Shown here one piece after another: positions 20,191 to 43,148 of a DNA stretch of 64,000 nt. The notes beneath the pieces were generated by a model that saw only the letters and a list, made by a program, of their open reading frames with translations, searched no databases and was not told where the DNA came from. Position 1 is the first letter of the stretch, and the number at the start of each line of letters is the position of its first letter. Location of the stretch: contig MGPQ01000001.1 in NCBI GenBank assembly GCA_001797465.1, positions 62,001 through 126,000 on the forward strand, given 5' to 3'. A program made the translations under genes and the position numbers. This stretch comes from Deltaproteobacteria bacterium GWB2_55_19. GTDB taxonomy: Bacteria > Desulfobacterota > GWC2-55-46.

Positions 20191-23100
20191 TTGAAAAAAA
20201 CAAAAATCATATACCCGTTGCTTCTCCTCCTGACGCTCTTTTTAGCCTCCGCGTCCGCTTCAGCCAAGGACGGCGGTGGGGGCTCCCTCATAAGCCCGGG
20301 GGACCTCGCCTCGGCCCACTCCAAGTACGAGGGGATAAGCAACTGCACGCAATGCCACAGGATGGGCGGCGGCATACCGGACTCAAAGTGCCTCGATTGC
20401 CACGACAAGCTCTCGGCGAAGATGAAAGGCGGCAAGGGCTTCCACGCCAATATTAAGGACCCCTGCATCAAGTGCCACGCCGACCACAAGGGCAGGTCGT
20501 ACAAGATGGTCGTCTTTGAAAAAGAGAAGTTCGACCATGCCAATACGGAATATCCCCTTAAAGACAAACACTCGGCGGTCCAGTGCGTCAAGTGCCACAG
20601 GAAGGAGGGTGTCTATACCGTCGCGACTACCGAGTGCGTCTCCTGCCACAGGGACGAGCACAAAAAACAGCTCAACCAGGACTGCTCGAAGTGCCATAAC
20701 ATCAAGGGCTGGAAGGACATAGCGCTCTTCAGCCACAAGACAGGCTCAGTATACCCGCTCGAAGGCAGGCATGTTGACGTAAAATGCGCCAGATGTCACG
20801 TAAGCGGCAGGTACAAGCCCATAGAGTTTAAGAAGTGCCTGGACTGCCACAAGGACACGCACAGGGGCCAGTTCATTGGCAGGACCTGCGAGTCATGCCA
20901 CACGGTCAAGGACTGGAAGACGACTTCGTTCGACCACAACGCGCCGTCGTACAAGGGGTACAGGCTTGAAGGCAAGCACATCACGACCCAGTGCGACAAG
21001 TGCCATGTAAAGGGGAAGTACAAGCCGATCCCCTCAGGCAAGTGTCTGGACTGCCACGCGGACCCGCACAAGAGGCAGTTTCCGGGCAAGACATGCGAGT
21101 CATGCCACACGGTCAAGGGCTGGAAGACCACCTCCTTTGACCATAACGCGCCTGCGTACGCCGGATACAGGCTTGAAGGCAAGCACATCAAGGTCGATTG
21201 CGCGAAGTGCCACGTGGACGGCAAGTACAAGCCGCTGCCTTACAAACAGTGCCTGGACTGCCACAAGGACGAGCACAAGGGGCAGTTCAAGGGAAAGACC
21301 TGCGAATCGTGCCACACGGTAAGGGACTGGAAGACGACGTCCTTCGAGCACAACGCTCCGGCGTACCCCGGTTACAGGCTCGAAGGAAAACACCTTCAGA
21401 CCAAATGCGACAAGTGCCATGCGGAGGGCAAATACAGGCCGCTTCCATACAAGCAGTGCCTGGACTGCCATAAGGACGAGCACAACGGCCAGTTCGCAAA
21501 GCAGAGGTGTGAGGCGTGCCATACGGTCAAGGACTGGAAGTCGGCCTCCTTTGACCACAACGCGCCGACGTACCTCGGTTACAGGCTCGAAGGCAAGCAC
21601 AGCAAGGTCGAGTGCGCTAAGTGCCATATAAAGGGCAAGTACAAGCCTTTGCCGGCGGAATGCGTCGACTGCCACAGGAAGGACGACACACACAAGGACG
21701 AGCTCGGGGCTGTCTGCGAGAAGTGCCACACGGCCCTTGACTGGAAGAAGATAACGCTCGACCATAACGCGAAGACGAAGTTCCCGCTCGTCGCCGCGCA
21801 CAAGACGACGCCCTGCGACAAGTGCCACAGGAACAAGAGCTACAAGACCAAGGCCGAGAAGTGCATCGACTGCCACAAGGACGTCCACAAGGGCAAGTTC
21901 AAGGAGGAGTGCAACTCCTGCCATACCCAGGCGGACTGGAGGCCGAGGGCCTTTGACCACGCGAAAAAGGCCGGGTTCGCGCTCTCGGGCGTCCATAACG
22001 ACCTCGTATGCGGCGCGTGCCACACGAAAAAGGACGAGTACAGGTTCCTGTCGCGCTTCTGCAGCCAGTGCCACACGGACCCGCACAGGAACCAGTTCGG
22101 CTCGGAGTGCTCTGAGTGCCATACGGAGCGTTCCTGGGCGCTCAACAAGTTCAAGCACTCGTCGACGTCCTACCCGCTCTCCGGCAGGCACAGGAGTGCC
22201 GAGTGCCAGGACTGCCACAGGAACCGCCAGTACAGGGCGACATCGAGGGTCTGCGTCAACTGCCACCTATCGTCGTATTCGAGCGCGCCGAATCACCTCT
22301 CCCGCGGCTACAGCCAGGACTGCGCCCAGTGCCACGCTACCAACTTCGTCTCCTGGGTATTCAGGCACTCAACCGCGAACACCGGGTGCTCGTCATGCCA
22401 CTTAAACGACAGGCCTTCGAGCCACGTGTCCAACCCTTCGTCTTACTCGACGACCTGCGAGCAATGCCATACGTCCACGGCGTCATGGAGCTCGCACAAG
22501 CATACGTCGGCGACGACCGGCTGTTCGTCGTGCCACCTGAGTTCGAGGCCGTCTTCGCACTCGTCCAACCCGTCCAAGTACCCGACGACCTGCGAGAGCT
22601 GCCATACCTCGACGGTCTCGTGGTCGACGTCCAAACACGTATCCACGTCGACCGGGTGCTCCTCGTGCCACTTGAGCGAGAGGCCAGGCTCGCACTCGTC
22701 GGACCCGTCCAAGTACTCGACTACCTGCGAGCTCTGCCACTCATCCACGGCGTCGTGGAGCTCGCACAAACATACGTCGGCGACGACGAACTGCTCGACG
22801 TGCCACTTGAGCGACAGGCCTTCGACCCACACGTCGAACACCTCCTTGTACTCGACGACCTGCGAGAACTGCCACAAGTACCCGACGTGGACGTATTCTC
22901 ACACGGCTACGACGAACTGCTCGTCGTGCCACCTGAACGAGAGGCCTTCGACCCACACGTCTAACACCTCCTTGTATTCGACTACCTGCGAGAACTGCCA
23001 CAAGTACCCGACGTGGACTGCCTCTCACACTGCAACGACCGGCTGTTCGTCGTGCCACCTGAACGAGAGGCCTTCGACGCATACGTCGAACACGGCAACG

Positions 23101-23466
23101 TATTCGACTACATGCGAGACCTGCCATAAGTACCCGACATGGACCTGGTCGCACACCGTGACGACCGGCTGTTCGTCGTGCCATACGTCAGACGCGCCTT
23201 CGGCGCACACGACCTACGCGAGCGCCTTCGGGACTACGTGCGAGACCTGCCACACCTATCCGACATGGACCTCCACGAAGATAAGCCACTCGTCGCTCAC
23301 TACGTTCCCGTCCACCCACAAGGGGTATTCACAGTGCTCGGACTGCCACCCGTCCATGAGCTACGCGACCGGCAACTGCATCAACTGCCACAAGTCCGTC
23401 GGCGCCGACACGCACAATACGACGTCTGACTCGGTATGCCTGAGCTGTCATCCGAAGGGCAATTAA
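20191..23466 (+). CDS. Giant secreted c-type cytochrome with 47 CXXCH haem-binding motifs
   Basis: A signal peptide (IIYPLLLLLTLFLASASASA) precedes a 1091-residue protein in which I count 47 CXXCH motifs. From 20887 to about 21700 there are four 69-residue modules with three haems each, of the form CESCHTVKDW ... CDKCH ... CLDCHKDEHK. From 22447 to 23229 there are six 42-45-residue Ser/Thr-rich modules with two haems each (TTCENCHKYPTW ... CSSCHLNERPS). Many extra His residues could act as distal ligands. It presumably forms a long haem wire across the periplasm or outside the cell. The start is TTG at 20191 with GGAAAG upstream. The next gene, a beta-barrel, is 9 nt away. Confidence 0.95.
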   Translation: MKKTKIIYPLLLLLTLFLASASASAKDGGGGSLISPGDLASAHSKYEGISNCTQCHRMGGGIPDSKCLDCHDKLSAKMKGGKGFHANIKDPCIKCHADHKGRSYKMVVFEKEKFDHANTEYPLKDKHSAVQCVKCHRKEGVYTVATTECVSCHRDEHKKQLNQDCSKCHNIKGWKDIALFSHKTGSVYPLEGRHVDVKCARCHVSGRYKPIEFKKCLDCHKDTHRGQFIGRTCESCHTVKDWKTTSFDHNAPSYKGYRLEGKHITTQCDKCHVKGKYKPIPSGKCLDCHADPHKRQFPGKTCESCHTVKGWKTTSFDHNAPAYAGYRLEGKHIKVDCAKCHVDGKYKPLPYKQCLDCHKDEHKGQFKGKTCESCHTVRDWKTTSFEHNAPAYPGYRLEGKHLQTKCDKCHAEGKYRPLPYKQCLDCHKDEHNGQFAKQRCEACHTVKDWKSASFDHNAPTYLGYRLEGKHSKVECAKCHIKGKYKPLPAECVDCHRKDDTHKDELGAVCEKCHTALDWKKITLDHNAKTKFPLVAAHKTTPCDKCHRNKSYKTKAEKCIDCHKDVHKGKFKEECNSCHTQADWRPRAFDHAKKAGFALSGVHNDLVCGACHTKKDEYRFLSRFCSQCHTDPHRNQFGSECSECHTERSWALNKFKHSSTSYPLSGRHRSAECQDCHRNRQYRATSRVCVNCHLSSYSSAPNHLSRGYSQDCAQCHATNFVSWVFRHSTANTGCSSCHLNDRPSSHVSNPSSYSTTCEQCHTSTASWSSHKHTSATTGCSSCHLSSRPSSHSSNPSKYPTTCESCHTSTVSWSTSKHVSTSTGCSSCHLSERPGSHSSDPSKYSTTCELCHSSTASWSSHKHTSATTNCSTCHLSDRPSTHTSNTSLYSTTCENCHKYPTWTYSHTATTNCSSCHLNERPSTHTSNTSLYSTTCENCHKYPTWTASHTATTGCSSCHLNERPSTHTSNTATYSTTCETCHKYPTWTWSHTVTTGCSSCHTSDAPSAHTTYASAFGTTCETCHTYPTWTSTKISHSSLTTFPSTHKGYSQCSDCHPSMSYATGNCINCHKSVGADTHNTTSDSVCLSCHPKGN
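20887..21714 (+). repeat. Four tandem 69-codon tri-haem modules
   Basis: Units begin at 20887, 21094, 21301 and 21508, exactly 207 bp apart, each starting with the Cys codon of CESCH or CEACH. Unit content is CE(S/A)CHTV, a YRLEGKH segment, C(D/A)KCH and a third CXXCH. Exact spacing implies in-frame duplication of a tri-haem unit. Confidence 0.85.
22447..23229 (+). repeat. Six tandem 42-45-codon di-haem modules
   Basis: Three 45-codon units are followed by three 42-codon units. Each contains TTCExCH, then a CSSCH or CSTCH followed by RPS(S/T)H-type text. The DNA copies are close enough to suggest recent expansion, and the region opens long spurious frames on other strands. Confidence 0.85.
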
Positions 23467-23475: not shown

Positions 23476-24714
23476 ATGAAGACCGAATATCGAAAAATAA
23501 GGCTCGCGTCGTGTCTGGCGCCGGTCTTTGTTATGCTCCTGGGCGGCCAGGCGCTCTCAGCCCAGACAAAGGGGAGCCTCTCCATCGAGGACTATTACCT
23601 TAATGACACGTCCGACGACGGCTATCAGCACCTCTTAACGACGCGGCTTAAGCTCGACATGACGAAGCTTGACAAGAGCGGCGCGTGGGCCCTGCACTTT
23701 GACGGCAGGGAGCGGCTTAACCTCGGCACTTACGATAGCTCCAGCGAAGACGCCCGCGTGGACGTACTTAACTTCGACTACACCGGAAAGTCGGTCTACG
23801 TCGCCGTCGGCAGGGTCTGGCCGAAGGAGCTCTCCACCGAGCGCGTGGATGGCGTGAACGCGGTCTATCAATGGGACAAGTACGGCCTCGGCTCGTTCCT
23901 GGGCCTGCGCCCGGACCCGTACTCAGAGATGTTCACGACGGAGTTCGTCTCCGGCGGCGCGTACGCGTATTACAAGACCGACTCTCTTTCGACGAACGCC
24001 GCATTCACGCACACCATGTACAAGGGCGCTACCGACAGACAATACCTCTACAGCCAGACTACCTATGTGAAGGAGAAGATCACTCTCCTCGGTCTCTTGA
24101 CAGGCGACATCAACCAGAGGACAAAGGGCCTTTCGCTCACGAACGGCCTCCTTGACCTCTCCTTCAAGCCCGCCCCGAACAAGGGCGTAAGCGTCGGGTA
24201 CAACCAGTTCAAGTCCGTCCAGCTCTACGCCTCGACTGACGAGGAGGTCGACCCAGGCTCCGAGCGCTCGTACTACCTTGCCTTTAATTACCGCTTCAGG
24301 GACAAGTACAATCTGTTTGCGAGGGTTGAGAGGCAGAACCGCGATTACGCGAGCCTTGAGGACGGCTATAAGGACGGGATGGCGTACAAGACCGGCGTGA
24401 ACATCGACGGCCTACTCAAGACCGGCGTGAACCTGAACCTCGGGGCGTCCCTGAGCGACGGGTTCGGCGGCGAGTACAACTCTTACGATATCGAGGCCTC
24501 AAGGGTCTTCAAGGAAGTATTACAGCTCGTCATGAATGGCTCTTACAGCCTGAGCAGGTACACGGACTCAGATACGACCCGGATATGGGCTTACGGCCTC
24601 TCAGGCTACCTCTATATGTCGAAGAGGTGGACGTTTACGCTCTCTTACAATGGGGAGTACGCGGAAGACTACACGGTCAACAGCCTCCTTACCCGCCTCG
24701 CGATCAAGTTCTGA
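23476..24714 (+). CDS. Outer-membrane beta-barrel protein of the cytochrome conduit
   Basis: A signal peptide ending near QALSAQ (residue ~30) is followed by alternating amphipathic strands rich in Tyr, Gly, Asp and Lys, such as YLAFNYRFRDKYNLFARVER and RWTFTLSYNGEY. The chain ends ...LAIKF, with the C-terminal Phe used for outer-membrane barrel assembly. At 412 residues a barrel of about 16-20 strands is expected. It starts 9 nt after the multiheme gene, matching the porin-cytochrome organisation in which a barrel sheathes haems across the outer membrane. The family assignment rests on this pattern only. Confidence 0.82.
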   Translation: MKTEYRKIRLASCLAPVFVMLLGGQALSAQTKGSLSIEDYYLNDTSDDGYQHLLTTRLKLDMTKLDKSGAWALHFDGRERLNLGTYDSSSEDARVDVLNFDYTGKSVYVAVGRVWPKELSTERVDGVNAVYQWDKYGLGSFLGLRPDPYSEMFTTEFVSGGAYAYYKTDSLSTNAAFTHTMYKGATDRQYLYSQTTYVKEKITLLGLLTGDINQRTKGLSLTNGLLDLSFKPAPNKGVSVGYNQFKSVQLYASTDEEVDPGSERSYYLAFNYRFRDKYNLFARVERQNRDYASLEDGYKDGMAYKTGVNIDGLLKTGVNLNLGASLSDGFGGEYNSYDIEASRVFKEVLQLVMNGSYSLSRYTDSDTTRIWAYGLSGYLYMSKRWTFTLSYNGEYAEDYTVNSLLTRLAIKF

Positions 24715-24840: not shown

Positions 24841-26139
24841 TTACTCGGTCCCGAACTTCTTTTCGATCCTGACGCCTATGGAGAGCAGGAACTCGTTCGG
24901 GAGCTCTCCGCCGGCGAAGATATAGACGTAATCGTTATTGATAAACGCCTCCTTGCCTTCCGTTTCGATCCTGACGTCCTTTTCGCGTATCTCTTTTACA
25001 TTTGAGTTGAGTATGACCGTCACCGACTTTTTGGATACTGCCTCGTCGAGCCGCGTCTTGTTCATCGGCTTTATGCGCTTGAAGGAGTCGGAGCGGTATG
25101 AAAGGGATACCTTGTTCCCCGGCTGTTTGGCGAGTGCGATGGCGGCCTCGATGGCGCTGTCCCCGCCGCCGACGACGAGGAGGTGATGGTCCCTGTGCTG
25201 TTCCGGGTCGAGGAGGCTGTAGGTGACCTTGGGCAGTTTTTCCCCGGGGACGTCGAGCTTTCTGGGCGTCCCGCGCCTGCCTATGGCGAGGATGACGTTC
25301 CTCGCCGGGTACTCTCCCTTTGACGTTTTCACCCTGAAACCGTCGGCCTCCCTCGCAAGCCCCGTCATCTTCTCCCCGGTCCTTATCTCCAGCCCGGTCT
25401 TTTTGATGACCGAGGTCCAGAGGTCGAGGAGCGCTTCTTTCGTCGTCTCGCGGAGCCGCACGCTCCCGTAGAGCGGGAGCTCGACCGGTGAGGTCATCAC
25501 TATCTTGTGGCGGGGGTAATTGAAGACAGTGCCGCCGACGTCACCCTGCTCAATGGTCACGAACTTAAGGCCCTTTTTTGAGGCCATCAGCGAGGCGCCG
25601 ACGCCCGCTGGGCCGGCGCCTATTATGATTACGTCGTACGCCTCGGCGCGCCCCTTGTCCGCCCCGAGCCTGCAGGAGATGTATTCGACGGCCTCTCTCC
25701 CCTGGGTGATGGCGTTCTTTATGAGCCCCATGCCGCCGAGCTCTCCGGCTATGAAGATGCCCTTTATGTTCGTCTCGAAGTCGGGGGTGAGGTGCGGGAT
25801 ATCCACGCCGCGAGTCTCGGTGCCGAATACGAGCGCGATAGCGCCCACAGGGCAGGCCTCGGCGCACGCGCCGTGTCCGACGCAGTGCGAGGCGTTTATG
25901 AGCCCGCCTTTGCCGCCTATTAGGCCTATGATGTCCTTTTCAGGGCAGGCCTTCACGCACGCGCCGCTTCCGATGCATTTGGAGGGGTCTATCTTCGGGT
26001 GGATCGTCGTAGGCTCGCGGAAGCCGTATTCTTCGGCGAGGGCGACCTTCTTCTTTACCTTTTTTGATTTTCTGGAGATGATGCTCAGGTAAAGGGCTAT
26101 GGCGAGCACTATGAGCGCGGCTGAGATGATGGAGGTCAA
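24841..26139 (-). CDS. Membrane-anchored ferredoxin-flavin oxidoreductase
   Basis: An N-terminal helix (IISAALIVLAIALYLSII) precedes two ferredoxin-like cluster motifs and a pyridine-nucleotide-disulfide-type flavoprotein domain (VIIIGAGPAGVGAS near residue 170, LLVVGGGDSAIEAA near 310, GELGGMGLIKNAITQGREA near 130). The cluster motifs are C55-x2-S-x2-C-x3-CP and C86-x2-H-x2-C-x3-CP: each lacks the second Cys of a standard 4Fe-4S site. The flavin half resembles YpdA/thioredoxin-reductase-like enzymes. It probably shuttles electrons between NAD(P)H and a membrane or cytochrome partner. It is convergent with the conduit operon. Confidence 0.82.
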   Translation of the reverse strand: MTSIISAALIVLAIALYLSIISRKSKKVKKKVALAEEYGFREPTTIHPKIDPSKCIGSGACVKACPEKDIIGLIGGKGGLINASHCVGHGACAEACPVGAIALVFGTETRGVDIPHLTPDFETNIKGIFIAGELGGMGLIKNAITQGREAVEYISCRLGADKGRAEAYDVIIIGAGPAGVGASLMASKKGLKFVTIEQGDVGGTVFNYPRHKIVMTSPVELPLYGSVRLRETTKEALLDLWTSVIKKTGLEIRTGEKMTGLAREADGFRVKTSKGEYPARNVILAIGRRGTPRKLDVPGEKLPKVTYSLLDPEQHRDHHLLVVGGGDSAIEAAIALAKQPGNKVSLSYRSDSFKRIKPMNKTRLDEAVSKKSVTVILNSNVKEIREKDVRIETEGKEAFINNDYVYIFAGGELPNEFLLSIGVRIEKKFGTE

Positions 26140-26460: not shown

Positions 26461-27921
26461 ATGAGCTCCGGCGCACTCGCGCGCGATTACCGTCATAAAA
26501 TAGCCGAGGCCGTAGCCGGACTCGGCTACGGAGACGCCTCGGCCCTCTTCGACGCCCTCGCGATGGATGCGCGGAAGCGCGGCTTCACCTACCAGAGGGC
26601 GGGCGGCCTCGTCGAGGCGATCCGCCTCATGCTCATACCCGCGGTCTTTACGGCTGAACAGTTGAATCATCTAAGCGTCGTCGCCCACGCGATCCACCGC
26701 GGCATGGAGGCCGTAAGCAGGGCGTGGAGCGAAGACGACAGGCTTCGGAGGATGCTCCCGTTCGAGGAGGAGGAAGGGGCGTGGATAAGGTCCGTAAGAA
26801 GGGACCCGAAGTCCCCGGACCCCCTCTGGTACAGGCTTGACGCGCACCTGTCGATGGACGAGCCGGACTGGCGCAGCCGCATCTCCATATTCGAGATAAA
26901 CGCATGCGCCGTCGGCGGCATACACTACGGCCCGATGGCCGAGAGGCTCTTCCTCGATGAGATAGTCCCGTTTTTGAATTTGAAAAAGAGGCTCGCCCTC
27001 CTCCCACGCGTCACAAGGGGCCCGGACGCCAGAGACCTCCTCGGCCTTCTCGTTGCCAGGCACGCGAGGGCACTGGGAAGGACCACGCTCAACTTCGTAT
27101 TCTCCGAGGACACGACCGCCGAGGAAGGGATAACGGAGGGGCCCTACATTGTAGAATATTTGAGGTCAATCGGCGTTAACGCCCTCCTTGCCGACCCGAG
27201 GGAGTTATATGAAAAGAGGGGCGAGGTCTGGTACAGGGACACGCCCGTGGATATCGTATACAGGAATTTCGAGGCGAGGGAGATAATCGAGATGGAGCGG
27301 GAGGGCGGGGATACAAAAGGCATAAGGCTCGCCTTCGAAAAGAACCAGGTCATCTCGTCCCTTACGGGCGACTTCGATCACAAGGCCATGTGGGAGGTCC
27401 TCGCTGGAGGCGAGTTCGACGCGTATTTGAATCCAACGGACGCCGCTATATTCAAAAGACACCTCCCGTGGACGAGGATCGTAGGCGAAAGAAAGACCCT
27501 CGGCCCCGACGGCCGCGAGGAGGACCTTGCGCGCCTCTTGAGAAGAGAGAGGGAGTCGCTTGTCCTGAAGCCCGACCGTCTCTGCGGCGGCTACGGCGTA
27601 ACCATAGGCAGGAACCTCTCCCCTTCCGAATGGGAGAGGGCGATAGACGAGGCCATACGGGGCGACTGGGTCGTGCAGGCGTACTCGCCTCCGGAGATAA
27701 CGAAGTTCCCGGTGCTTGAGGACGGGGCCTTAAGCTTCGAGGACCATAACATCGTCTACGGGCTATCATCGACGCCTGACGGCACGGCGGTCCTCGGCAG
27801 GGTGTCGAGGGAGGGTGTAGTGAACGTCGCACAGCAGGGCGGCCTCATGCCGGTCTTGAGGCTCTCTGAAGAGGGCCTTAAGGACGGCGTAAAGGGGCCG
27901 CTTTCCGGTACATGGGCATGA
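26461..27921 (+). CDS. Circularly permuted ATP-grasp-like ligase
   Basis: The sequence (486 residues) has the features of circularly permuted ATP-grasp proteins related to glutathionylspermidine synthase: IFEINACAVGGIHYGP near residue 143, VDIVYRNFEAREI near 262, ESLVLKPDRLCGGYGV near 363 and DWVVQAYSPP near 401. These provide the Lys, Gly loop and metal ligands for ATP. The enzyme should make an amide or peptide bond through an acyl phosphate; the substrate is unknown. Its 3' end overlaps tldD, and tldE follows immediately, so it likely acts on the same peptide as the TldD/TldE protease. Confidence 0.75.
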   Translation: MSSGALARDYRHKIAEAVAGLGYGDASALFDALAMDARKRGFTYQRAGGLVEAIRLMLIPAVFTAEQLNHLSVVAHAIHRGMEAVSRAWSEDDRLRRMLPFEEEEGAWIRSVRRDPKSPDPLWYRLDAHLSMDEPDWRSRISIFEINACAVGGIHYGPMAERLFLDEIVPFLNLKKRLALLPRVTRGPDARDLLGLLVARHARALGRTTLNFVFSEDTTAEEGITEGPYIVEYLRSIGVNALLADPRELYEKRGEVWYRDTPVDIVYRNFEAREIIEMEREGGDTKGIRLAFEKNQVISSLTGDFDHKAMWEVLAGGEFDAYLNPTDAAIFKRHLPWTRIVGERKTLGPDGREEDLARLLRRERESLVLKPDRLCGGYGVTIGRNLSPSEWERAIDEAIRGDWVVQAYSPPEITKFPVLEDGALSFEDHNIVYGLSSTPDGTAVLGRVSREGVVNVAQQGGLMPVLRLSEEGLKDGVKGPLSGTWA

Positions 27922-29363
27922 AGGGGATATTCGTTTCCATACTCGCGCGTCTGAAAAAACTCGGCGTGGACTACGCCGACATAAGACACGAGCGTATAAT
28001 GACGGAATCCATGCAGGCGCTCGACGGAGAGGTCGAAGGCTTTTCGACCGACACTTCCGCCGGGGTCGGCGTAAGGATCCTATACAGGGGGGCCTGGGGT
28101 TTTGCCGCGACGAACATCGTAACCGAGGAGAGCGCCATGAAGGCCGCAAAAGAGGCGCTCGCGATGGCAAGGGCGTTCTCGGCCGTGAATACGGGAAAGG
28201 CGCGCCTCTCGGTGTCGGAGCCGTTCGTCGAGAGCTATTCAACGCCATATGAAATCGACCCCTTCAGCGTCGCCTCTGACAAGAAAATATCTTTGATCGC
28301 CGGGGTCACCGGCGCGGCGCTCCGGGAAAAGGGGATATCATCAGCCGAGGCCTTCCTTGAATTCTCCAGGGCCGAAAAGGAGTTCTGCAATACCGATGGC
28401 GCCTTCATTTCGCAGACCATACTGACGAGCGGCGGCGGCTATCACGTCATAGCCGGGGACAACGACGACGCGCAGGTCCGTTCGTACCCGGACGGCCACC
28501 ACGGGCTCTTCGCCACGCGCGGCTACGAGCTGATAGAGGAGCTCGACTTCATGGGGAGCCTGCCCAGGGTCACTGCCGAGGCCCGCTCTCTCTTATACGC
28601 GCGCGAGTGCCCGTCCGGCGTAAGGGACATCATCATAGACGGCCCACAGCTCGCGTTACAGATACACGAGTCGTGCGGCCACCCAGCCGAGCTCGACCGG
28701 GCGCTCGGCGCCGAGCTCGGCTTTGCCGGAGGGAGTTTCCTTACGCCTGATAAACTGGGAACGTTCAGGTACGGCTCCCCGATAGTGAATATATACGCCG
28801 ACCCGAACGAGCCCGGGGGGGCCGGGAGTTACAGGTTTGACGACGAAGGGGTGAGGGCGCAGAGGGTCGATCTCGTAAGAGACGGCGTCTTCACCGGTTA
28901 CCTTACCTCCCGCGAGTCGGCCCTTGCCGTCGGAGGCGTATCGAACGGCTCGATGAGGGGCGAGGGATGGGGAGGGCTCCCCTTGATAAGGATGAGCAAC
29001 GTCTGCATAACGCCGGGGCAAGGTACGCTCGACGACCTCGTCTCCGACACCAAAGACGGCATCCTCATGTCGGTGAACAGGAGCTGGTCGATAGATGACA
29101 GGAGGCTTAACTTCCAGTTCGGGGCGGAGATAGCCTGGGAGATAAAGAACGGGAAGGTCAAAGAGGCGTTCAGGAACCCCGTATATTACGGCAGTACCCC
29201 CGGGTTCTGGGCCTCCTGCGACGCCGTATGCGGCAGAAGCGAGTGGAGGTTGTGGGGGCTGAACAGTTGCGCGAAGGGAGAGCCGATGCAGGTCGCCCAT
29301 GTAGGCCACGGCGCCTGCCCCGCGCGTTTCAGGTCAGTGAAGGTGGGGGTGGGAAAACCCTGA
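27912..29363 (+). CDS. tldD: TldD-family zinc metalloprotease subunit
   Basis: TldD pairs with TldE (PmbA) to form a tunnel-shaped protease acting on unfolded peptides; the Escherichia coli pair matures microcin B17 and degrades CcdA antitoxin. The zinc motif HESCGH lies at about residues 252-257, preceded by DGPQLALQI, with SSPGFWASCDA-like C-terminal text (TPGFWASCDAVCG) containing the third ligand region. 483 residues is normal. The ATG at 27912 lies inside the ATP-grasp 3' end; a second in-frame ATG at 27918 overlaps its stop (ATGA). Confidence 0.93.
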   Translation: MGMKGIFVSILARLKKLGVDYADIRHERIMTESMQALDGEVEGFSTDTSAGVGVRILYRGAWGFAATNIVTEESAMKAAKEALAMARAFSAVNTGKARLSVSEPFVESYSTPYEIDPFSVASDKKISLIAGVTGAALREKGISSAEAFLEFSRAEKEFCNTDGAFISQTILTSGGGYHVIAGDNDDAQVRSYPDGHHGLFATRGYELIEELDFMGSLPRVTAEARSLLYARECPSGVRDIIIDGPQLALQIHESCGHPAELDRALGAELGFAGGSFLTPDKLGTFRYGSPIVNIYADPNEPGGAGSYRFDDEGVRAQRVDLVRDGVFTGYLTSRESALAVGGVSNGSMRGEGWGGLPLIRMSNVCITPGQGTLDDLVSDTKDGILMSVNRSWSIDDRRLNFQFGAEIAWEIKNGKVKEAFRNPVYYGSTPGFWASCDAVCGRSEWRLWGLNSCAKGEPMQVAHVGHGACPARFRSVKVGVGKP

Positions 29364-30706
29364 TGGACGGACTGCTGAAAGACAGGCTGATTAGTGAGGG
29401 GGAGAGGATAGCGGCGAGCGCGCAGGCGGATTCAATCGAGTTCGTTGCGAGCCGGGAGTCGTCCTCGACCATGCGGTTCTCCTCGTCGCGCTTCCACCAG
29501 GGCATATCGGTAACTGACGCGTCTTTCCATATAAGGGTTTTGATAGGCAGGAAGATCGGGGTCGCCTCGACGAACTCCATTGAGCGGTCCGCGTTGGACA
29601 GGTGCCTTGACGAGGCCCTGGGAATAGCCCGCGCCACGAGAGAGGAACCGTTCCTGTTGAAACCCCCCGGGCCGTGCCGCTATGCGCGGGTGAACTCCTT
29701 TTTCGAATCAACGGCACGCGCCTCTTATGACGAGAAGGCTTCGCTCGTCGCCTCCGGGTTCAGGGAGGCCCTCGTGTCTGGCGTCAGCCTTTCCGGAGCG
29801 CTCGCTACCGTTGTCGGAGAGGCCGTTATCGTGAATTCCAGAGGCCTAAAGGCCTACCACCCGTATACCTTCGCGCATTTAAGTTCCGTAGCCTCCTCAG
29901 GCGACGCCTCGGGGTTCGCGTCCGCCGTATCGAACGATATCTCCAGGATAGACATAAAGGGCCTCATGCGCGCCTCGGCGGAGACGTGCCTGAGGTCGTC
30001 TTTCCCGAAGGAGACGCCTCCCGGCGTATACCGCGTGCTATTGGAGCCCTCAGCCGTAAGCGAACTCGTCCATTGGCTCTCATACACGGGTTTCGGCGCG
30101 AAGTCCTTCCATGACAAGACGGGCTTTTTAAGCGAGAGGATCGGAGAGGCCGTAACAGGGGAAAAGGTGACCATATACGACGACGGGCTCGACGCGAAAG
30201 GCATGGCGATCCCCTTCGACTTCGAGGGCTCGCCCAAAAAGAGGCTCCCTCTCATAGAGAGGGGTGTCGCTTCCGGCATAGCCTACGACAGCCTGACGGC
30301 GTCAATCGAAGGGAGGGAATCGACCGGCCACGCGTCCTTCCCCGGTGACAATGAGGGGCCGTTCCCCGATCACCTGTTCATGGAAGGGGGAGACGTCGCG
30401 GCCATTGACATGCCCGGACTCCTCGGCGACGGCATACTGGTGAAGTCGTTCCATTATGTGAACGGGCTTCTGAACCCGAGGGAGACTTTAATGACCGGGA
30501 TGACGAGGCACGGGACGTTCCTCGTAAGGGATGGCGTTGTAAAGCACGCGCTGAGGCCCATGAGGTTCACCGAGAAGGTCCTCGAAGCATTCGGAAGGAT
30601 CGAGGCGGTCTCAAGGGAGACGGCCGTATACCCGAACGGCGCCTTCCCGTTGAGCTCTGTAACCGTCCCTTACATCCTCATAGACGGCTTTTCGTTCACG
30701 TCTTAA
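29363..30706 (+). CDS. pmbA: TldE/PmbA-family protease partner subunit
   Basis: This is the non-zinc partner of TldD, 447 residues. Family features are the AGLLDxxxSEGE-like N-terminus (LLKDRLISEGERIAASA), a central HPYTFAHLSS, VYRVLLEPSAVSELVHWL near residue 235, the FDFEGSPKKRLPLIERG stretch near 285, and a C-terminal RRGTFLVRDG-like segment (TRHGTFLVRDG). It lacks HExxxH, as expected. Translation begins at the ATG that overlaps the tldD stop (TGATG); a longer open frame into tldD has no supporting start. It completes the ATP-grasp/tldD/pmbA unit. Confidence 0.92.
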   Translation: MDGLLKDRLISEGERIAASAQADSIEFVASRESSSTMRFSSSRFHQGISVTDASFHIRVLIGRKIGVASTNSIERSALDRCLDEALGIARATREEPFLLKPPGPCRYARVNSFFESTARASYDEKASLVASGFREALVSGVSLSGALATVVGEAVIVNSRGLKAYHPYTFAHLSSVASSGDASGFASAVSNDISRIDIKGLMRASAETCLRSSFPKETPPGVYRVLLEPSAVSELVHWLSYTGFGAKSFHDKTGFLSERIGEAVTGEKVTIYDDGLDAKGMAIPFDFEGSPKKRLPLIERGVASGIAYDSLTASIEGRESTGHASFPGDNEGPFPDHLFMEGGDVAAIDMPGLLGDGILVKSFHYVNGLLNPRETLMTGMTRHGTFLVRDGVVKHALRPMRFTEKVLEAFGRIEAVSRETAVYPNGAFPLSSVTVPYILIDGFSFTS

Positions 30707-31610: not shown

Positions 31611-32933
31611 ATGTCGATATCGTTGCGGACCAAGATCATCTCGAGTTTTTTCATCGTCTTCGCGCTCCTCTCCTTCCTCGGCGCCCTCTCCCTTTACAAT
31701 AGGAACCTCATCTACGACGGCATGATGGAGGTGGAGGACGCCTCCCGCGATCTGAAGTACATATCCGACTTGAAGCTCTCCCTTGACATGGCGGTGATGC
31801 CGGCGAACGACTATCTCATAACCGGCGACCCGGCCGAGAAGGCCAGGTTCGTCGAGCTCGTTAAGGATGTTGAGGAGAGGTTCTCTCTGCTTAAGGGCGC
31901 GGGGATGTATGACGAGGGCATAAAAACAGCCGAAACGAAGTTCGGTCTCCTCAAACAGAAGTCCATGCATGTACTGGCAAGCCTCCCGGCTGTGCATAAC
32001 AGACGCGACGCGGCCCTGATGGAGGAGATAGACGCCCTCGCCCTGGACATCATAGCCAACCACCTCGACAGGGTATATCTGGGCAAGAGGGATGAGATGT
32101 CTTACAGGGTAGAGGCCGCCTCTTCCTTGAGGCACAAGGTCGACGCCATACTCTTTGCCGTGGCGGCCGTCTCTTTCCTCGCAATTATCGGCGTCGCCGC
32201 GTACCTCTTCCGTTCGATATTGAGGCCCATAGACGAGCTGACGCGGGGCGCGGCGATAATAGGGAACGGCGACCTCGGCCACAGGGTCGATATAAGGGAT
32301 GGCATCGAGATGAACCTCCTCGCCGATGAATTCAACCGCATGGCCGGGAGACTCGGCGAGTCCTACGCGGAGCTCGAAAAAAAGATAGACGAGAGGACAA
32401 AGGAGCTGAACGAGGCGAACGGGCGCCTGAAAGCTCTCTCCATAACCGACGGGCTCACCGGGGCGTACAACCACAGGCACTTCGCAGAGAGGCTTGAAGA
32501 GGAGTGCAAGCGCTCGGCCCGGTACGGGAAAAGGCTCTCCCTCATAATGTCCGATATAGACCACTTCAAGAGCTACAACGACCTTAACGGGCACCCGGCA
32601 GGGGACGCGGTCCTCGCAGGGGTCGCCGAGTGCCTTAAGGACGGGATAAGGGGTCAAGACCTCCTCGCGAGATACGGCGGAGAGGAGTTCTCGATAATAC
32701 TCCCTGAGACGGGTAAAGAAGAGGCGTGCCTCATGGCCGAGAGGATAAGGGCGAGGGTAAGGGATAAGGTCTTCCCTAACGAGTCGGGACAACCCGGAGG
32801 GGACCTTACCATGAGCTTCGGGGTCGCCTCTTGCCCGGAGGATGCCGCCAGCGCCGAAGACCTCGTGAAGAAGGCCGACGCGGCGCTTTACAGGGCCAAG
32901 GAGGCTGGCAGGGACAGGGTCGAGTGCGCCTGA
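31611..32933 (+). CDS. Membrane diguanylate cyclase with periplasmic sensor, HAMP and GGDEF domains
   Basis: Two membrane helices (residues ~10-28 and ~180-200) flank a ~150-residue helical sensor containing AVMPANDYLITG at 61-72 and NRRDAALMEEID near 132. HAMP follows (RSILRPIDELTRGA to NRMAGRL), then a coiled coil and a GGDEF domain starting SITDGLTGAYNHRHF. The active site reads GGEEF, and an RxxD inhibitory site (RGQD) precedes it, so the enzyme should make c-di-GMP with product feedback. The first 72 residues align without gaps to those of the HAMP-PAS protein at 43149. Confidence 0.93.
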   Translation: MSISLRTKIISSFFIVFALLSFLGALSLYNRNLIYDGMMEVEDASRDLKYISDLKLSLDMAVMPANDYLITGDPAEKARFVELVKDVEERFSLLKGAGMYDEGIKTAETKFGLLKQKSMHVLASLPAVHNRRDAALMEEIDALALDIIANHLDRVYLGKRDEMSYRVEAASSLRHKVDAILFAVAAVSFLAIIGVAAYLFRSILRPIDELTRGAAIIGNGDLGHRVDIRDGIEMNLLADEFNRMAGRLGESYAELEKKIDERTKELNEANGRLKALSITDGLTGAYNHRHFAERLEEECKRSARYGKRLSLIMSDIDHFKSYNDLNGHPAGDAVLAGVAECLKDGIRGQDLLARYGGEEFSIILPETGKEEACLMAERIRARVRDKVFPNESGQPGGDLTMSFGVASCPEDAASAEDLVKKADAALYRAKEAGRDRVECA

Positions 32934-33016
32934 AAATGGCAAAAGTCCTCAATCCCGCATTTAATAAATTAAAACCGCCCGCCTCAATCCACCATGTATG
33001 TGCCCTTCATAAGGCC

Positions 33017-33045
33017 TTGACGTAAAACATGTTTTAGGGTATTAC
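33017..33045 (+). promoter_or_regulatory. Promoter with palindromic operator upstream of the chemosensory operon
   Basis: TTGACG (33017-33022), a 17-nt spacer and TATTAC (33040-33045) form a good sigma-70 promoter. The spacer contains a perfect 14-bp palindrome, TAAAACATGTTTTA (33023-33036). A repressor bound there would occlude RNA polymerase between the two elements. Confidence 0.65.
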
Positions 33046-33187
33046 TATTGTAAGCATTGCTTTAAATGGCTTTCCAGGCATAAGCGGTCCTGACGGCGGG
33101 GCGGTCTTATGCAGGGGGTGGACGCGTAGCTGGCGTCCCATACAAACAAACCACCATGCAAAGGATGGGACATGATGGCGTGCCCCA
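33046..33187 (+). ncRNA. Structured 5' leader of the chemosensory operon (class unknown)
   Basis: The ~140-nt leader can form an outer GCATAAG/CTTATGC stem (33078-33084 with 33106-33112), GGACGC/GCGTCC (33120-33125 with 33133-33138) and a possible CCCAT/ATGGG pairing nearer the start codon. It does not match the conserved core of c-di-GMP riboswitches. Regulation by this leader is only a possibility. Confidence 0.3.
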
Positions 33188-34558
33188 TTGTACTGCGAGA
33201 TGGATGGAAAAAGGCTGAAACTCATATCGGGGCTTGTCTCCGAGGCGACGGGACTGCGCATACGCCCTGACGATTATCCCAATCTCTTGAAGGCCGCCTC
33301 CGAGAGGGCGCGCCTTTCAAATATCTCGGTCGAAGACTATATCGACCTCATCCGATCCCCGCTTTTTGACCGGAAGGAAAAAGAGGCCTTGAAGGCACTG
33401 CTTTCCGTGCCCGAGTCCTTTTTCTTCAGGGACAAGGGGCAGTTTGATCTTATCCGTGCAAGGATACTCCCCGAGATCGTCGAAAAAAGGCGCGCCGAGA
33501 GGCGCTTAAGCCTCTGGAGCGCCGGTTGCTCCTCAGGCGAGGAGCCCTACTCGCTCGCGATACTCGTAAGGGAGGCCCTGCCGGACTATAAGTCATGGGA
33601 TATCACCATACTAGGGACCGACATAAGGGAAGACCTCCTGGAAAAGGCCCGAAAGGGGCTCTACGGAGAATGGTCTTTCCGCACTGTGGAGCCCGAGGCC
33701 AAGGCCGCATGGTTCAGGAGGTCCGGTGCGTACTGGGAAATAGACCCGTCGATAAGGGAGATGGTGGAGTTCAGGAAGGCCGACCTCATTGGCGGCGATT
33801 GCCCCGAGGGCATGGACTTCATACTCTGCCGGAACGTATTCATTTATTACAGTAAAAAGGCCATAGCAGGGATGGCCGGGAGGCTCGTCTCGGCCCTTGC
33901 GCCCGGCGGATACCTCTTTACCGGACACGGAGAGTTCTACGGGGTCAAGGTCGAAGGCTTGAAGACAATGACCTTTCCCGAATCCGTAGCCTACATGAAG
34001 GCGTTGCCCGAGGAGGCGTTTTCGGTGAGGCCCGCCTCAGGCGCGCCGGAGAGAGCCCCGGCCAGGGCCGCAAAACTGGCCCAGAAGGGCCTCAATAGGT
34101 CCGGAGCCCCTCCCGTTGCCGGGGGTCCCGGCGGTACCGCAAGCAGGGCCGAGGCCGCCGGGCCGCTCATACTCGCCGCCTCGGTTTATGCGGACGCAGG
34201 AGAATTAAAGAAGGCCTCCGAGTGCCTCCTGAAGGCGCTGGACGCCGACAAGTTCTCGTTAGAGCCGTACTTCCTCCTCGCCCAGATAGCCGAAGAGAGC
34301 GGGGACGTCGAGGACGCGAAGAGGTGGCTCAAGAAGGCCCTGTACGTCAACCCGTCTTTTGTCCCGGCATACCTTGAGCTCGCCTCCATCTACGACAACG
34401 AGGGGCTCATCGAGAGGGCGGAGAGGATGCGTGAAAGCGCGCTTTCGATCCTCTCCTCCATGCCCCCGGACGCCCCGATAGAGCATTATGAGCAGACCAA
34501 CGCCGGAGAGCTCTCCGGGTTCCTGAAAAAGACGGCCGAGGGCGGCCGGAAGAAATAA
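33188..34558 (+). CDS. CheR-type protein-glutamate methyltransferase with C-terminal TPR (WspC-like)
   Basis: Residues ~1-275 form a CheR methyltransferase: ESFFFRDKGQFDLI, the SAM loop WSAGCSSGEEPYSLAI near residue 115, GTDIREDLLEKARKG, FILCRNVFIYY and FTGHGEFYG. A Pro/Ala-rich linker leads to TPR repeats (~330-430, KASECLLKALDAD, DAKRWLKKALYVNPSFVPAYLELA). CheR-TPR fusions such as WspC use the TPR to reach receptors lacking a tether pentapeptide, and both receptors here lack one. The start is TTG at 33188; an ATG four codons on (33200) is equally possible. Confidence 0.92.
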   Translation: MYCEMDGKRLKLISGLVSEATGLRIRPDDYPNLLKAASERARLSNISVEDYIDLIRSPLFDRKEKEALKALLSVPESFFFRDKGQFDLIRARILPEIVEKRRAERRLSLWSAGCSSGEEPYSLAILVREALPDYKSWDITILGTDIREDLLEKARKGLYGEWSFRTVEPEAKAAWFRRSGAYWEIDPSIREMVEFRKADLIGGDCPEGMDFILCRNVFIYYSKKAIAGMAGRLVSALAPGGYLFTGHGEFYGVKVEGLKTMTFPESVAYMKALPEEAFSVRPASGAPERAPARAAKLAQKGLNRSGAPPVAGGPGGTASRAEAAGPLILAASVYADAGELKKASECLLKALDADKFSLEPYFLLAQIAEESGDVEDAKRWLKKALYVNPSFVPAYLELASIYDNEGLIERAERMRESALSILSSMPPDAPIEHYEQTNAGELSGFLKKTAEGGRKK

Positions 34559-34563
34559 TCGTT

Positions 34564-35565
34564 ATGGAAAAAACGGTAACCCCATTCGTGGTATTCAGGC
34601 TCTCCGGCTCCCTCTACGGGGTGAAGGCCGAGAGTGTCAGGGAGATGCTCAAGCTCCCTGAGCTCGTCCCGCTTGAGGAGGCCCCGTCCTATATACCTGG
34701 TTTTTTCAACCTGCGGGGCGGAATCGTTCCTGTCATGGACCTCGAGATGAGGTTAGGACACCCGTTTCACTGTTATTCCATAGACGACGCGCTGATAATC
34801 GTAGATGAGGGCACTCTCATGGGGATAATAGCGAGCGAGCTCCTCTCGGTCGAGGATATCCCGCCCTCAGCTATCGAGGCCCTCTCGCCCATTCAGAAGG
34901 AAGGCGCGCGCCATCACTTCATCGGGGGCGAGGCGAGACGCGGCGAAGACATCGTGATGCTCCTGGACCTCGAGGCCGTCGTCGATCACGGGACCGGGCC
35001 AGGGGTCGACGAGGGGGCGTTGCGCGCGTTCTGGCCAGAGGCCTCCGAGGGGCAAAGGGAGGTCCTCAAAGAGAGGGCGCGGGTCTTAAGCGAGCCTTCT
35101 TCAGGGCTTGAGGCCGAAGGGGTCATGCCTTTCGCGGTCATCGTGCTCGGGGGCGAGCGCTTCGCCATAAGGTGCGAGAGCATCCGCGAGTTCGCGGAAC
35201 TTAAAGACCTTACGCCCGTGCCGTGCACGCCCGCCCACATACTCGGGGACACCAATCTCCGGGGCGACGTCCTGACGGTCATAGACATAAGAGGGCGCCT
35301 TGGCATGTCCCCGGCGGCTCCGGGGCCCGGCTCCAAGGTGGTAGTCGCTGAGGCCGGCGGCGTAAGGGCCGGTGTGCTTGCCGACTCCGTCGAGGAGATA
35401 GCGTATTTGAGCCCTGCGGAGATAACGCCTGCCCCGCTCTCGTCAAAACAGGCGGAAGACGAGTACCTGTTGGGAGCGGCGCGGAGCGGGGAGAGGATGA
35501 TAGCGGTCATAGACCTCGAGAGGATGCTCACTAAAGGCGGCCTCCTTGTAGACGAGACCGTATAG
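34564..35565 (+). CDS. Tandem CheW-domain coupling protein
   Basis: Two CheW domains lie in one 333-residue chain: the first at ~5-145 ([43 protein letters not shown]), the second at ~180-325 ([42 protein letters not shown]). A helical linker of ~30 residues joins them. CheW couples receptors to CheA; Wsp systems have two separate CheW proteins (WspB and WspD), so this looks like a fused equivalent. It starts 5 nt after cheR. Confidence 0.93.
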
Positions 35566-35587
35566 CAATGAAAAGGAGAAGATCGAT

Positions 35588-37030
35588 ATGCGAGGAATGA
35601 AGGTAAGGACCGGGATGCTCCTCGGGAACCTCATAGGCGCGGCGCTCTTTGTAATAGTAGCCATCGTCGTGCTCGTAAGCGCCAACACCGTATCGAGGTC
35701 GATAGATGAGATCGCCGCTTCATCGAGGGACCTCGACACGGCGAACGAGCTCAACGATTCCGTGAACGAGATGGTGAGGGCCGTAAGGGACTATGCGATA
35801 GCCCGCGACAAAAGCGTGCTGGATGCCTTTGAGGAAGGCGTAAGAAGTTTCGAAGCGGTCTCGGAAAGGGCGAAGGAGATACCGGACCCTGTCCTGCAGG
35901 GCCGCATGAACGAGCTCATATCCCTGGGCAGGCAGTATTACGGGATCGGCAAAGAGGTTATAGAGATCGTGGACAGGGGCAGGCCGATAGAGGCGGCTGT
36001 ACCTGTGATAAAAAAGGCAAGGCCGGTCTTCGAGAGGATGAAGCCCATCATGAGGGAGTTCCACGAGAGGACCGATTCCGTTTTGAAAGCAGACGAACAG
36101 GCCGCGCTCTCCGCGGCCAGGACCCTTTACACGGTCTTGATAGCAGGCGTTATCGTCTCGATCGGCCTTGCGGTTGGAGGGGCCGTCTTGATTTCGTCAT
36201 GGATAGCGAAGGGCGTAAAGGAGTCCACCGGCGCGGTCTCTGCGGCGACAAGCGAGATAGCCTCGACCGTCGCCGAGCACGAGAGGACCGCCTCCGCGCA
36301 GTCGGCGTCTGTCACCGAGACCGCCGCGACGATGAACGAGCTCGGGGTGTCTTCAAAAAAGGTTTCGGAGCAGGCGGAGAGCGCGACGGAAGGCGCGAAG
36401 CATGTCATGTCCCTCGCCGAGGAGGGATTGAAGACCGTCGAGCAGACGATAGAGGGGATGGCTACTATAAAGGAGAAGTCGGGGACCATAGCCGGTGAGA
36501 TACTCAAGCTGAGCGAGCAGACGGCTCAGATAGGGTCAATCGCTAACCTCGTGACCGACATATCCTCGCAGATAAACATGCTCGCGCTTAACGCCGCGGT
36601 CGAGGCGGTCAGGGCCGGAGAGCACGGAAAGGGCTTCAATGTGATAGCCCAGGAAGTGAGAAAGCTTGCCGACCAGGCGAGGAAGTCCGCCGAGCGAGTG
36701 AACGGCATCGTCGTCGACATACAGAAGGCGACGAACGCCGCTATAATGGCGACCGAGGAGGGCACCAAGACGATAGAGGAAGGCGCGAAGCTCGCGGAGA
36801 GGACGACAGAGGCCTTCAGCGGCGTGAACGCCTCCATAACCGCGGCGTTCGACAGCTTCAGGCAGATATCTCTCAACATCGCCCAGCAGGCCGCGGCGAT
36901 AAAGCAGGTCATGGAGGCTGTGAACGCCATAACAGCGGGCTCGAAAGAGACCGCCGCCGGCATAGCCCAGACCAAGGTGGGGATAGACAGGATAAACGAG
37001 AGGGCGCGGGCGTTGAACGAGATGGTCTAG
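35588..37030 (+). CDS. Methyl-accepting chemotaxis protein, four-helix-bundle-type sensor
   Basis: TM1 ([18 protein letters not shown], residues ~12-30) and TM2 ([24 protein letters not shown] fragments, ~178-205) enclose a ~145-residue helical periplasmic sensor. The cytoplasmic part runs straight into the signalling coiled coil with no clear HAMP domain. The hairpin tip is [20 protein letters not shown]. No CheR-binding pentapeptide ends the chain (...RARALNEMV), in keeping with the CheR-TPR neighbour. It corresponds in position to WspA. Confidence 0.93.
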
Positions 37031-37041
37031 GACGAGGAATT

Positions 37042-38601: not shown

Positions 38602-38619
38602 CGCGTTGCGGAGCAGTGC

Positions 38620-40920: not shown

Positions 40921-40944
40921 TACGGGGCCGATGAAAGGGTTATC

Positions 40945-41991
40945 ATGATCCGCAACAACGGCAAGAAGATAAGGGTCCTGCTCGTAGACGACTCGGCGCT
41001 CGCTCTCGCCGTTATGAAAAGGATAATCTCCTCGGCCCCGGACATCGAGGCCGCCGGGGAGTTCAGGTCGGCGAAGGAGGCCCTGAAGACGCTCCCCTCG
41101 ATAGACCCGGACGTCATATGCACCGACCTCCACATGCCGGAGATGGACGGGCTCGAGTTCACGCGGCAGGTGATGGAGAGGTTCCCGAAGCCGATACTGG
41201 TGGTGTCGGTATCGGTCGAAAGGTCGTCGGAGAACGCCTTCAGGCTCCTGGAGGCCGGGGCCGTGGACGTATTCTCGAAGCCCAGGGGAGAGATGGAGAG
41301 CGGTTTCCGGGCGCACTCGGACGAGCTCTTGAGCAAGATCCGCATCCTCTCAGGGGTGCATGTGTTCAAGAGGTTCTCAAGGCCGCGCGGGCCTCAAAGC
41401 ATGCCCGCCCCGGCATCGAGGCCCGGCTTGCGGAGGCCCGAGATAGTCGCCATAGGGGCCTCGACCGGCGGCCCCCAGGCCCTCTTCCTCATACTCTCGG
41501 TCCTGCCGCGCGACTTCCCTGTACCCGTGATATGCGTCCAGCACATAAGCGACGGCTTCCTTAACGGTCTCATAGAGTGGCTCGGGGGCGGCTGTGCCAT
41601 AAAGGTTTGCAAGGCCGTGGAGGGAGAGAGGCCGGTTGCCGGGCGCGTCTACTTCCCGGAGGAAGGATACCATCTCGTCATAGACAAGGGGGGGGCTTTC
41701 GCATACTCCCGTGAGCCCGCCAACCCGCACAGGCCCTCCATTACCGTGACCTTCAACTCGCTCGCGGACCATTACGGGGCAGGGGTCATCGGGGTGCTTT
41801 TGACCGGCATGGGCTCTGACGGGGCAGAAGGCATGCGCTCGATCGCCTCGGCGGGCGGCGCTACGATAGCCCAGGACGAGGCGACGTCCGTCGTCTTCAG
41901 CATGCCTAAAAAGGCGATAGAGCTCGGCGGGGCCTCCGAGGTCCTTCCATTATACGAAATATCACATTCGATACTCTCCAGGGTATCTTGA
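40945..41991 (+). CDS. cheB: Protein-glutamate methylesterase CheB (WspF-like)
   Basis: An N-terminal receiver (RVLLVDDSALALAVMKRI, phospho-Asp in ICTDLHMPEMDG) is joined by a linker to a CheB methylesterase domain. Catalytic residues are Ser in AIGASTGGPQ near residue 172, His in CVQHISDGF near 199 and Asp in GMGSDGAEGM near 292. It removes methyl groups from receptors, closing the adaptation loop with CheR. 348 residues is typical. Confidence 0.95.
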   Translation: MIRNNGKKIRVLLVDDSALALAVMKRIISSAPDIEAAGEFRSAKEALKTLPSIDPDVICTDLHMPEMDGLEFTRQVMERFPKPILVVSVSVERSSENAFRLLEAGAVDVFSKPRGEMESGFRAHSDELLSKIRILSGVHVFKRFSRPRGPQSMPAPASRPGLRRPEIVAIGASTGGPQALFLILSVLPRDFPVPVICVQHISDGFLNGLIEWLGGGCAIKVCKAVEGERPVAGRVYFPEEGYHLVIDKGGAFAYSREPANPHRPSITVTFNSLADHYGAGVIGVLLTGMGSDGAEGMRSIASAGGATIAQDEATSVVFSMPKKAIELGGASEVLPLYEISHSILSRVS

Positions 41992-42004
41992 AAGAAAGGC
42001 CGTC

Positions 42005-43147: not shown

Positions 43148-43148
43148 C

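Follow-up and report, generated by a model that had tools for sequence, protein, structure and literature searches.

Background

The pairing of a ligase with a hydrolase is a known theme, with GspSA, the Anbu operon and the NAGGN osmolyte operon as examples. The hydrolase of GspSA is an N-terminal CHAP cysteine amidase, and Anbu is a proteasome-like N-terminal-nucleophile enzyme. The Anbu operon encodes the Anbu peptidase, an ATP-grasp ligase with a putative peptide-ligase role, alpha-E and a transglutaminase (PMC5666114; this and the other papers are cited from excerpts), and the NAGGN operon (AsnO, Ngg and M42; PA3459-PA3461) combines the synthesis of a small dipeptide with an M42 peptidase (PMC8070244). 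In the ammosamide pathway, a ligase adds a C-terminal Arg and the TldD/E-like Amm12/Amm13 then removes the last two residues (PMC12424672). Here, we describe a three-gene module in a 64,000-nucleotide stretch of DNA (called the window, at its whole length) from Deltaproteobacteria bacterium GWB2_55_19 (GCA_001797465.1, contig MGPQ01000001.1, positions 62,001 to 126,000 of the forward strand), in which an ATP-grasp ligase gene overlaps the gene of a TldD-like catalytic subunit, followed by that of a TldE/PmbA-like partner subunit; the two subunits are named TldD2 and TldE2. What is constant across the loci of this ligase is a ligase plus a metallopeptidase, and we propose, with a probability of roughly 0.45, that one small non-ribosomal peptide, or a peptide-like conjugate, is made by the ligase and hydrolysed or trimmed by the peptidase.

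In the open-licence literature of PubMed Central (PMC), ATP-grasp together with TldD led only to the ammosamide paper, which as excerpted does not describe this module, and nothing was returned for circularly permuted ATP-grasp with peptidase, for ATP-grasp with carboxypeptidase Taq, or for glutathionylspermidine synthase with TldD. Within that literature the ligase family, its TldD/E operon, the M32 fusion and the exchange of peptidases were not found in print.

Metallopeptidase partners of the ligase

A scan of the genomes of 84,980 species gave 53 ligase loci, or 54 with the window. TldD lies within the fetched stretch at 20 of the 54 (the window, L030-L040, L043, L044, L058, L067, L071 and L077-L079), all in Deltaproteobacteria-labelled, Nitrospinae and Omnitrophota genomes, and TldE is also present at 19 of these 20, the remaining one (L058) showing TldD only, near a contig end. 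In the Omnitrophota, TldD is transcribed divergently from the ligase, and at L043 the two genes are about 6 kb apart. Extra genes stand between the ligase and TldD2 at L040, L043 and L071, and one of those in L040 is a toxin-antitoxin gene of the AbiEii type; it looks as though insertions have broken up the operon.

At 20 of the 54 loci (Alphaproteobacteria, other Pseudomonadota and Planctomycetes), the ligase is C-terminally fused to an M32 carboxypeptidase. The motif HEGGH or HEAGH is found in 19 of these fusions and the remaining one is cut by a contig end, while the M32 domain of L047, the single fusion scanned by Pfam, matches at E 2.8e-157. Since the fused M32 is the sole M32 of the genome in 19 of 20 cases, the fusion is not a spare copy. 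No CHAP amidase domain was found in the window's three proteins or in L047. In a further arrangement, seen at 3 of the 54 loci and all of them Anaerolineales, TldE2 and an M42 peptidase are directly downstream of the ligase; two of the genomes carry TldD2 on a different contig, and in the third no TldD2 was found. The TldE2 of the Anaerolineales groups with the TldE2 of other loci and not with ordinary TldE, and the nearest model of the M42 is TIGR03106 (352 bits against a cut-off of 397.75). Among selected neighbours scanned with Pfam at L041, L052, L063, L068-L070, L075, L081 and L082, no metallopeptidase of the TldD/E, M32 or M42 kinds was found.

In the ligase tree (44 rows), each partner state requires a single change, with support of 100/100 for TldD/E, 100/99 for M32 and 99/97 for TldE plus M42. 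Because each state occupies one branch, the peptidase exchange is an evolutionary replacement and not a scatter. TldE association occurs on both sides of this tree, which has no known root, so that TldD/E may have been the original partner and M32 a later substitute.

The fixed tldD/pmbA linkage that the first-pass annotation proposed to look for is confined to a single portion of the family: 22 of the 54 loci have TldD and TldE either nearby or on other contigs of the genome (L058, where only TldD is seen, is included), and 3 more have an adjoining TldE. Taken literally, the ligase is found mostly without tldD/pmbA, an outcome which that annotation had named as speaking against its own idea; we count it as half a refutation. 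Chance linkage would not account for the commonest alternative arrangement, in which another metallopeptidase takes that role.

Features of the three proteins

The ligase is below the cut-off of every Pfam and NCBIfam model, its best Pfam match being CP_ATPgrasp_1 (E 0.13; 11.7 bits against a cut-off of 23.1), and CP_ATPgrasp_2 has no match at E 0.001 in the window's own genome. In an alignment with 11 relatives, some members match CP_ATPgrasp_1 and CP_ATPgrasp_2, with E down to 8.7e-7, and a profile search led to the putative glutathionylspermidine synthase 3n6x (E 1e-5 with the 11 relatives; 2.8e-8 with the 44-row alignment). An AlphaFold model built on the 44-row alignment has a predicted local distance difference test score (pLDDT) of 89.5 and was compared with known structures by Foldseek (E down to 2.5e-17) and VIA-align. 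The full-length VIA-align matches are homoglutathione/glutathione synthetase, YgiC/YjfC, 3n6x, Cp1B, GspSA and trypanothione synthetase, with Z 22-29 over superpositions of 339-432 residues, and the following entry falls to Z 10. The predicted model has the three-domain fold of the glutathione-synthetase / GspS superfamily.

Besides the RxD and ExN motifs (Table 1), R268, K308 and K370 are likewise invariant in the 44 aligned relatives, and K370 of the lid motif presumably has a role in ATP binding. Residues of the ligase and of Cp1B were paired by motif and spacing and not by residue-level structural alignment; on that footing, the RxD/ExN residues of Cp1B-type acyl-phosphate catalysis are present in all 44 rows. 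When R139, D141, E163 or N165 of Cp1B was replaced, the activity was lost or almost lost (PMC12568646). Considering the fold match and the invariant RxD/ExN, the window's ligase is likely an active carboxylate-amine ligase. It is suggestive only that the window's genome has no GSH-S_ATP match above the cut-off (20.5 against 23 bits), as gshA-type genes were not searched for.

All three PmbA_TldD domains of TldD2 are above the Pfam cut-off (E 4.5e-39, 5.2e-15 and 6.6e-5). In TldE2 (E 1.5e-41, 7.8e-8 and 0.0022), the first and third domains are above it and the second is not (18.9 against 20.9), the match at 0.0022 being below the cut-off. The metal-site residues of E. coli TldD are His262, Glu263, His267 and Cys454 (PMC5810440). 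TldD2 has the corresponding HExxxH and remote Cys, and its supporting residues E260, D262 and K455 are kept in 19 of 19 rows; HExxxH is found in none of the 17 TldE2 sequences. As far as sequence can tell, the pair fits the E. coli arrangement of a catalytic TldD with an inactive but required TldE. Both subunits miss the cut-offs of the NCBIfam equivalogs for E. coli-type TldD and PmbA by far (65.2 of 513 and 30.1 of 438 bits), and each is on a deep branch apart from ordinary TldD or TldE in the trees. An ordinary TldD and TldE, about 25% identical to TldD2 and TldE2, are encoded on other contigs of the window's genome, so that TldD2 and TldE2 are an additional pair.

The enzyme classes that the first-pass annotation had read from the DNA (ATP-grasp ligase, TldD and TldE) are confirmed by the fold match and the Pfam domains, and the overlapping order of the ligase, tldD and pmbA genes also stands, with identical open reading frames (ORFs) and overlap positions. 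Two starts can be considered for tldD, ATG 27912 with a 10-nt overlap or ATG 27918 with the classic ATGA overlap on the ligase stop, of which the second is perhaps more likely. The ATGA and TGATG overlaps are found again in the three nearest relatives (L030-L032).

Table 1. Genes, overlaps and key residues of the ligase-TldD2-TldE2 module, in positions of the window
Feature	Positions	Strand	Details
ATP-grasp ligase gene	26461..27921	+	ORF, 486 aa; glutathione-synthetase / glutathionylspermidine-synthetase fold (predicted)
TldD-like catalytic subunit gene (TldD2)	27912..29363	+	ORF, 483 aa
TldE/PmbA-like partner subunit gene (TldE2)	29363..30706	+	ATG at 29363, 447 aa, no HExxxH
Overlap of ligase stop and tldD start	27912..27921	+	Ligase stop at 27919-27921; ATGA at 27918-27921
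TGATG, shared by TldD stop and TldE start	29361..29365	+	Stop/start overlap
RxD (R125, D127), ligase	26833..26841	+	Counterpart by spacing of Cp1B R139/D141; 44/44 rows
ExN (E145, N147), ligase	26893..26901	+	Corresponds by spacing to Cp1B E163/N165 and by alignment to the ExN of 3n6x; 44/44
K370 in lid motif LVLKPxRxxGGxGV, ligase	27568..27570	+	Aligned with 3n6x LVVK; 44/44
HESCGH metal-binding motif (H252, E253, H257), TldD2	28665..28682	+	19/19 rows
C453, TldD2	29268..29270	+	Corresponds to Cys454 of E. coli TldD, the third metal ligand; 19/19

Co-occurrence and conserved neighbours

In 59 related genomes, the ligase is found in 15, TldD (at least 50% identity) in 16 and both in 15, which leaves G057 as the sole genome with TldD2 but without the ligase. 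The linkage exceeds chance (Fisher p 4e-13, ignoring kinship). In three genera (g7, g10 and g13), some genomes have both genes and others neither; several of the latter are incomplete, where joint absence can arise because linked genes on a missing contig vanish together. In the f11 genomes, the ligase and TldD2 co-occur even when they are on different contigs.

TldD2, called at E <=1e-100, is present in 21 of 395 sampled genomes of the window's phylum. Of these 21, 4 are known ligase carriers, and the other 17 were examined over 6.9-18 kb around TldD2. At these loci (L169-L185, from other families of the phylum) the pair mostly has the order TldE2 then TldD2, without a nearby ligase. By eye, but unconfirmed by any family search, its neighbours include NifU-like, flavodiiron-like and zinc-ribbon-like genes.

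When neighbouring ORFs of at least 70 aa were clustered over the 54 loci, the 40 largest clusters were, apart from those of the ligase, TldD and TldE, all local or antisense. The first-pass remark that no precursor peptide is obvious nearby also holds in comparison, as 1331 short ORFs (20-100 aa) from the fetched stretches around 11 loci include none outside the three genes that three or more of the compared lineages share. In two Planctomycetes loci (L063 and L081), a menaquinone-pathway gene (VitK2_biosynth) is directly upstream of an unfused ligase, and L081 has an Rce1-like gene near the ligase on the opposite strand.

The ligase has no match in phages, and plasmids gave only 5 distant relatives (22-30% identity). 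One of them, with 22% identity, is on plasmid pNBBC01-5 of Pantoea agglomerans (L147), where it is surrounded by ectB, ThiF-family, TauD-family, CapA, ATP-grasp, purD-like and major facilitator superfamily genes. A distant paralogue of the ligase also occurs in a conserved gene cluster of Anaerolineales (L095, L096 and L099), which is likely a non-ribosomal peptide cluster; in L095 its families include subtilase, esterase, GCS2, ATP-grasp and metallo-beta-lactamase-type proteins.

A proposed shared substrate and its alternatives

From the observed gene order and overlaps, predicted fold, conserved catalytic residues, co-occurrence and peptidase exchange, we infer that both enzymes act on the same compound, and likewise the direction of the chemistry and the nature of the compound. 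In the proposed mechanism, the ATP-grasp enzyme would activate a carboxylate as an acyl phosphate and join an amine or amino acid to it, and the TldD2/TldE2 heterodimer, with a zinc or iron site in TldD2, would hydrolyse the new bond or a neighbouring one and thereby recycle or trim the product. In other lineages, the M32 fused to the ligase, or perhaps TldE2 plus M42, would take the peptidase role. Because the constant element is a ligase plus a metallopeptidase, a shared small-peptide substrate is better supported than by the TldD/E linkage alone. Enzymes of the ligase fold act on small carboxylates and peptides, the partner, where there is one, acts on peptides, and neither conserved tailoring enzymes nor a precursor peptide was found with them.

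The M32 enzymes are carboxypeptidases by family name, and glutathione-type ligases extend a C-terminal carboxylate. Together with the ammosamide TldD/E, this suggests by analogy that the ligase may add, and the peptidase remove, at the C-terminus of a single small peptide. A dipeptide-like solute would be a reasonable first guess, because the model nearest to the Anaerolineales M42 is that of the NAGGN peptidase. The pair may serve as a reversible store, in a trimming step or in tagging proteins. In a bolder form, which we consider doubtful, the module would be a ligation-deligation cycle, in which a constant ATP-grasp writer and interchangeable, unrelated metallopeptidase erasers (TldD/E, M32, or TldE plus M42) act on the same C-terminal amide bond, either in a small peptide metabolite or at the C-terminus of a protein; it would then be the bacterial analogue of tubulin tyrosine ligase and carboxypeptidase.

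Several observations weigh against a substrate shared by ligase and peptidase. In L041 and L042, TldD2/TldE2 are in the genome but on contigs other than that of the ligase. No peptidase partner was seen at 9 of the 54 ligase loci, with L076 among them cut inside the ligase, and two Gemmatimonadales genomes have no M32 or TldD/E matches and no peptidase among the scanned neighbours. In the Pirellulales, the ligase is found in 12 of 146 genomes and is never fused, with M32 in 121 of 146, including all 12 ligase genomes; M32 acting in trans was considered as a partner there and set aside as uninformative, so many genomes carrying it. In the more distant families of the window's phylum, the ligase hidden Markov model (HMM) has no match at any of the 17 TldD2 loci within the stretches examined, TldE2 being seen at 14 of them, and therefore the pair is not strictly dedicated to the ligase. 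The idea of the first-pass annotation, that one peptide-like compound is ligated and hydrolysed, gains from the replacement of TldD/E by M32 fusions (20/54) and by M42 beside TldE (3/54). The TldD2/TldE2 pairs without a nearby ligase (17/17) speak against a fixed linkage.

The same two enzymes could instead be consecutive steps of a one-way biosynthesis and not a make-and-break pair, if the peptidase cuts some other bond, or a precursor from earlier in the pathway; it might, for instance, free an acceptor peptide or take off a protecting residue. The TldD/E-like Amm12/13 act in this way in the ammosamide pathway (PMC12424672), and distant relatives of the ligase are in biosynthetic clusters (the Anaerolineales paralogue and the Pantoea plasmid). 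We regard this explanation as rather unlikely. Across phyla, no gene family other than the ligase and a peptidase recurs at the ligase loci, and more enzymes should come with a longer pathway. It is quite improbable that the link is weak or regulatory, with TldD2/TldE2 and M32 as general peptide degraders that are placed in one operon or polypeptide with the ligase for amino-acid recycling or joint expression, but have no substrate in common with it. The absence of a nearby ligase at the 17 TldD2 loci agrees with such a link, as does the sequence-independent binding of unfolded peptides by E. coli TldD/E (PMC5810440), but it explains poorly why 20 loci from Alphaproteobacteria, Planctomycetes and other Pseudomonadota have retained the M32 fusion, why unrelated peptidases serve as replacements, and why the f11 genes co-occur even across different contigs.

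Maturation of a ribosomally synthesized and post-translationally modified peptide (RiPP), in which the ATP-grasp enzyme modifies a gene-encoded precursor and TldD2/TldE2 removes the leader as in microcin B17, is very improbable. Several RiPPs are matured by TldD/E (PMC5810440) and graspetide ligases are ATP-grasp enzymes (PMC8939145), but the flanks of the 11 loci contain no short ORF conserved in at least three lineages and the fold of the ligase is of the small-molecule glutathione-synthetase type. For the preferred reading, in which ligase and peptidase handle one small conjugate, the genomes speak strongly for a small substrate in common, since unrelated peptidases replace each other beside one ligase. 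This points to a peptide metabolite in groundwater Deltaproteobacteria, Omnitrophota, Planctomycetes and Alphaproteobacteria, and might lead to a physiological function for one representative of TldD/TldE, a widespread family; the M32 fusion offers one protein in which both reactions can be assayed together.

Surrounding genes in the window

Divergent from the ligase gene is a YpdA-like flavoprotein oxidoreductase with a ferredoxin-type N-terminus (24841-26139, minus strand; TIGR04018 at E 6e-53, below the cut-off). A thiol link through this enzyme was considered and dropped, as it has no cluster among the 40 largest neighbour clusters. A multihaem c-type cytochrome of 1091 aa with 47 CXXCH motifs (20191-23466, plus strand) is directly followed by a 412-aa protein (23476-24714) without a Pfam match, which by eye resembles an outer-membrane beta-barrel; the two possibly form an electron conduit across the outer membrane. 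Downstream of the module, a receiver-PilZ protein at 30781 precedes a chemotaxis and signalling run (31611-47158, plus strand) with GGDEF, CheR-TPR, CheW, two methyl-accepting chemotaxis proteins, CheA with a receiver, CheB, PAS and HD/GAF proteins.

Comparison with known systems

Like the Anbu operon, the module pairs an ATP-grasp ligase with a peptidase, but Anbu, alpha-E and transglutaminase are absent among the scanned neighbours in the window. The NAGGN system shares the theme of a small non-ribosomal dipeptide beside an M42 peptidase, and its model TIGR03106 is the nearest one to the Anaerolineales M42; however, that protein is below the model's cut-off, AsnO and Ngg are not among the annotated neighbours, and no M42 adjoins the window genes; none of AsnO, Ngg and M42 is among the scanned neighbours in the window.

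TldD2/TldE2 resemble E. coli TldD/TldE in having the metal site in TldD only, with TldE as the inactive partner, and are comparable to the ammosamide Amm12/Amm13, whose cleavage follows a ligase step. They differ from ordinary TldD/TldE by the low identity (about 25% to the copies of their own genome) and the deep separate branches of both subunits.

Glutathione/homoglutathione synthetase, the peptidyl-polyamine synthetases YgiC/YjfC and Cp1B of E-64 biosynthesis share the full-length fold of the ligase (Z 24-29), and Cp1B also the catalytic RxD/ExN residues, matched by motif and spacing. The identity is only 11-16%, and the excerpts of their sources name no peptidase partner for them. GspSA and trypanothione synthetase-amidase (2io7-2iob, 2vob and 2vps; Z 22-24) are 10-14% identical to the window's ligase, and the hydrolase here is a C-terminal M32 metallopeptidase or a separate TldD/E, unlike the amidase of GspSA. 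GspSA nevertheless joins a ligase and a hydrolase in one unit, which is the same arrangement as in the M32 fusions.

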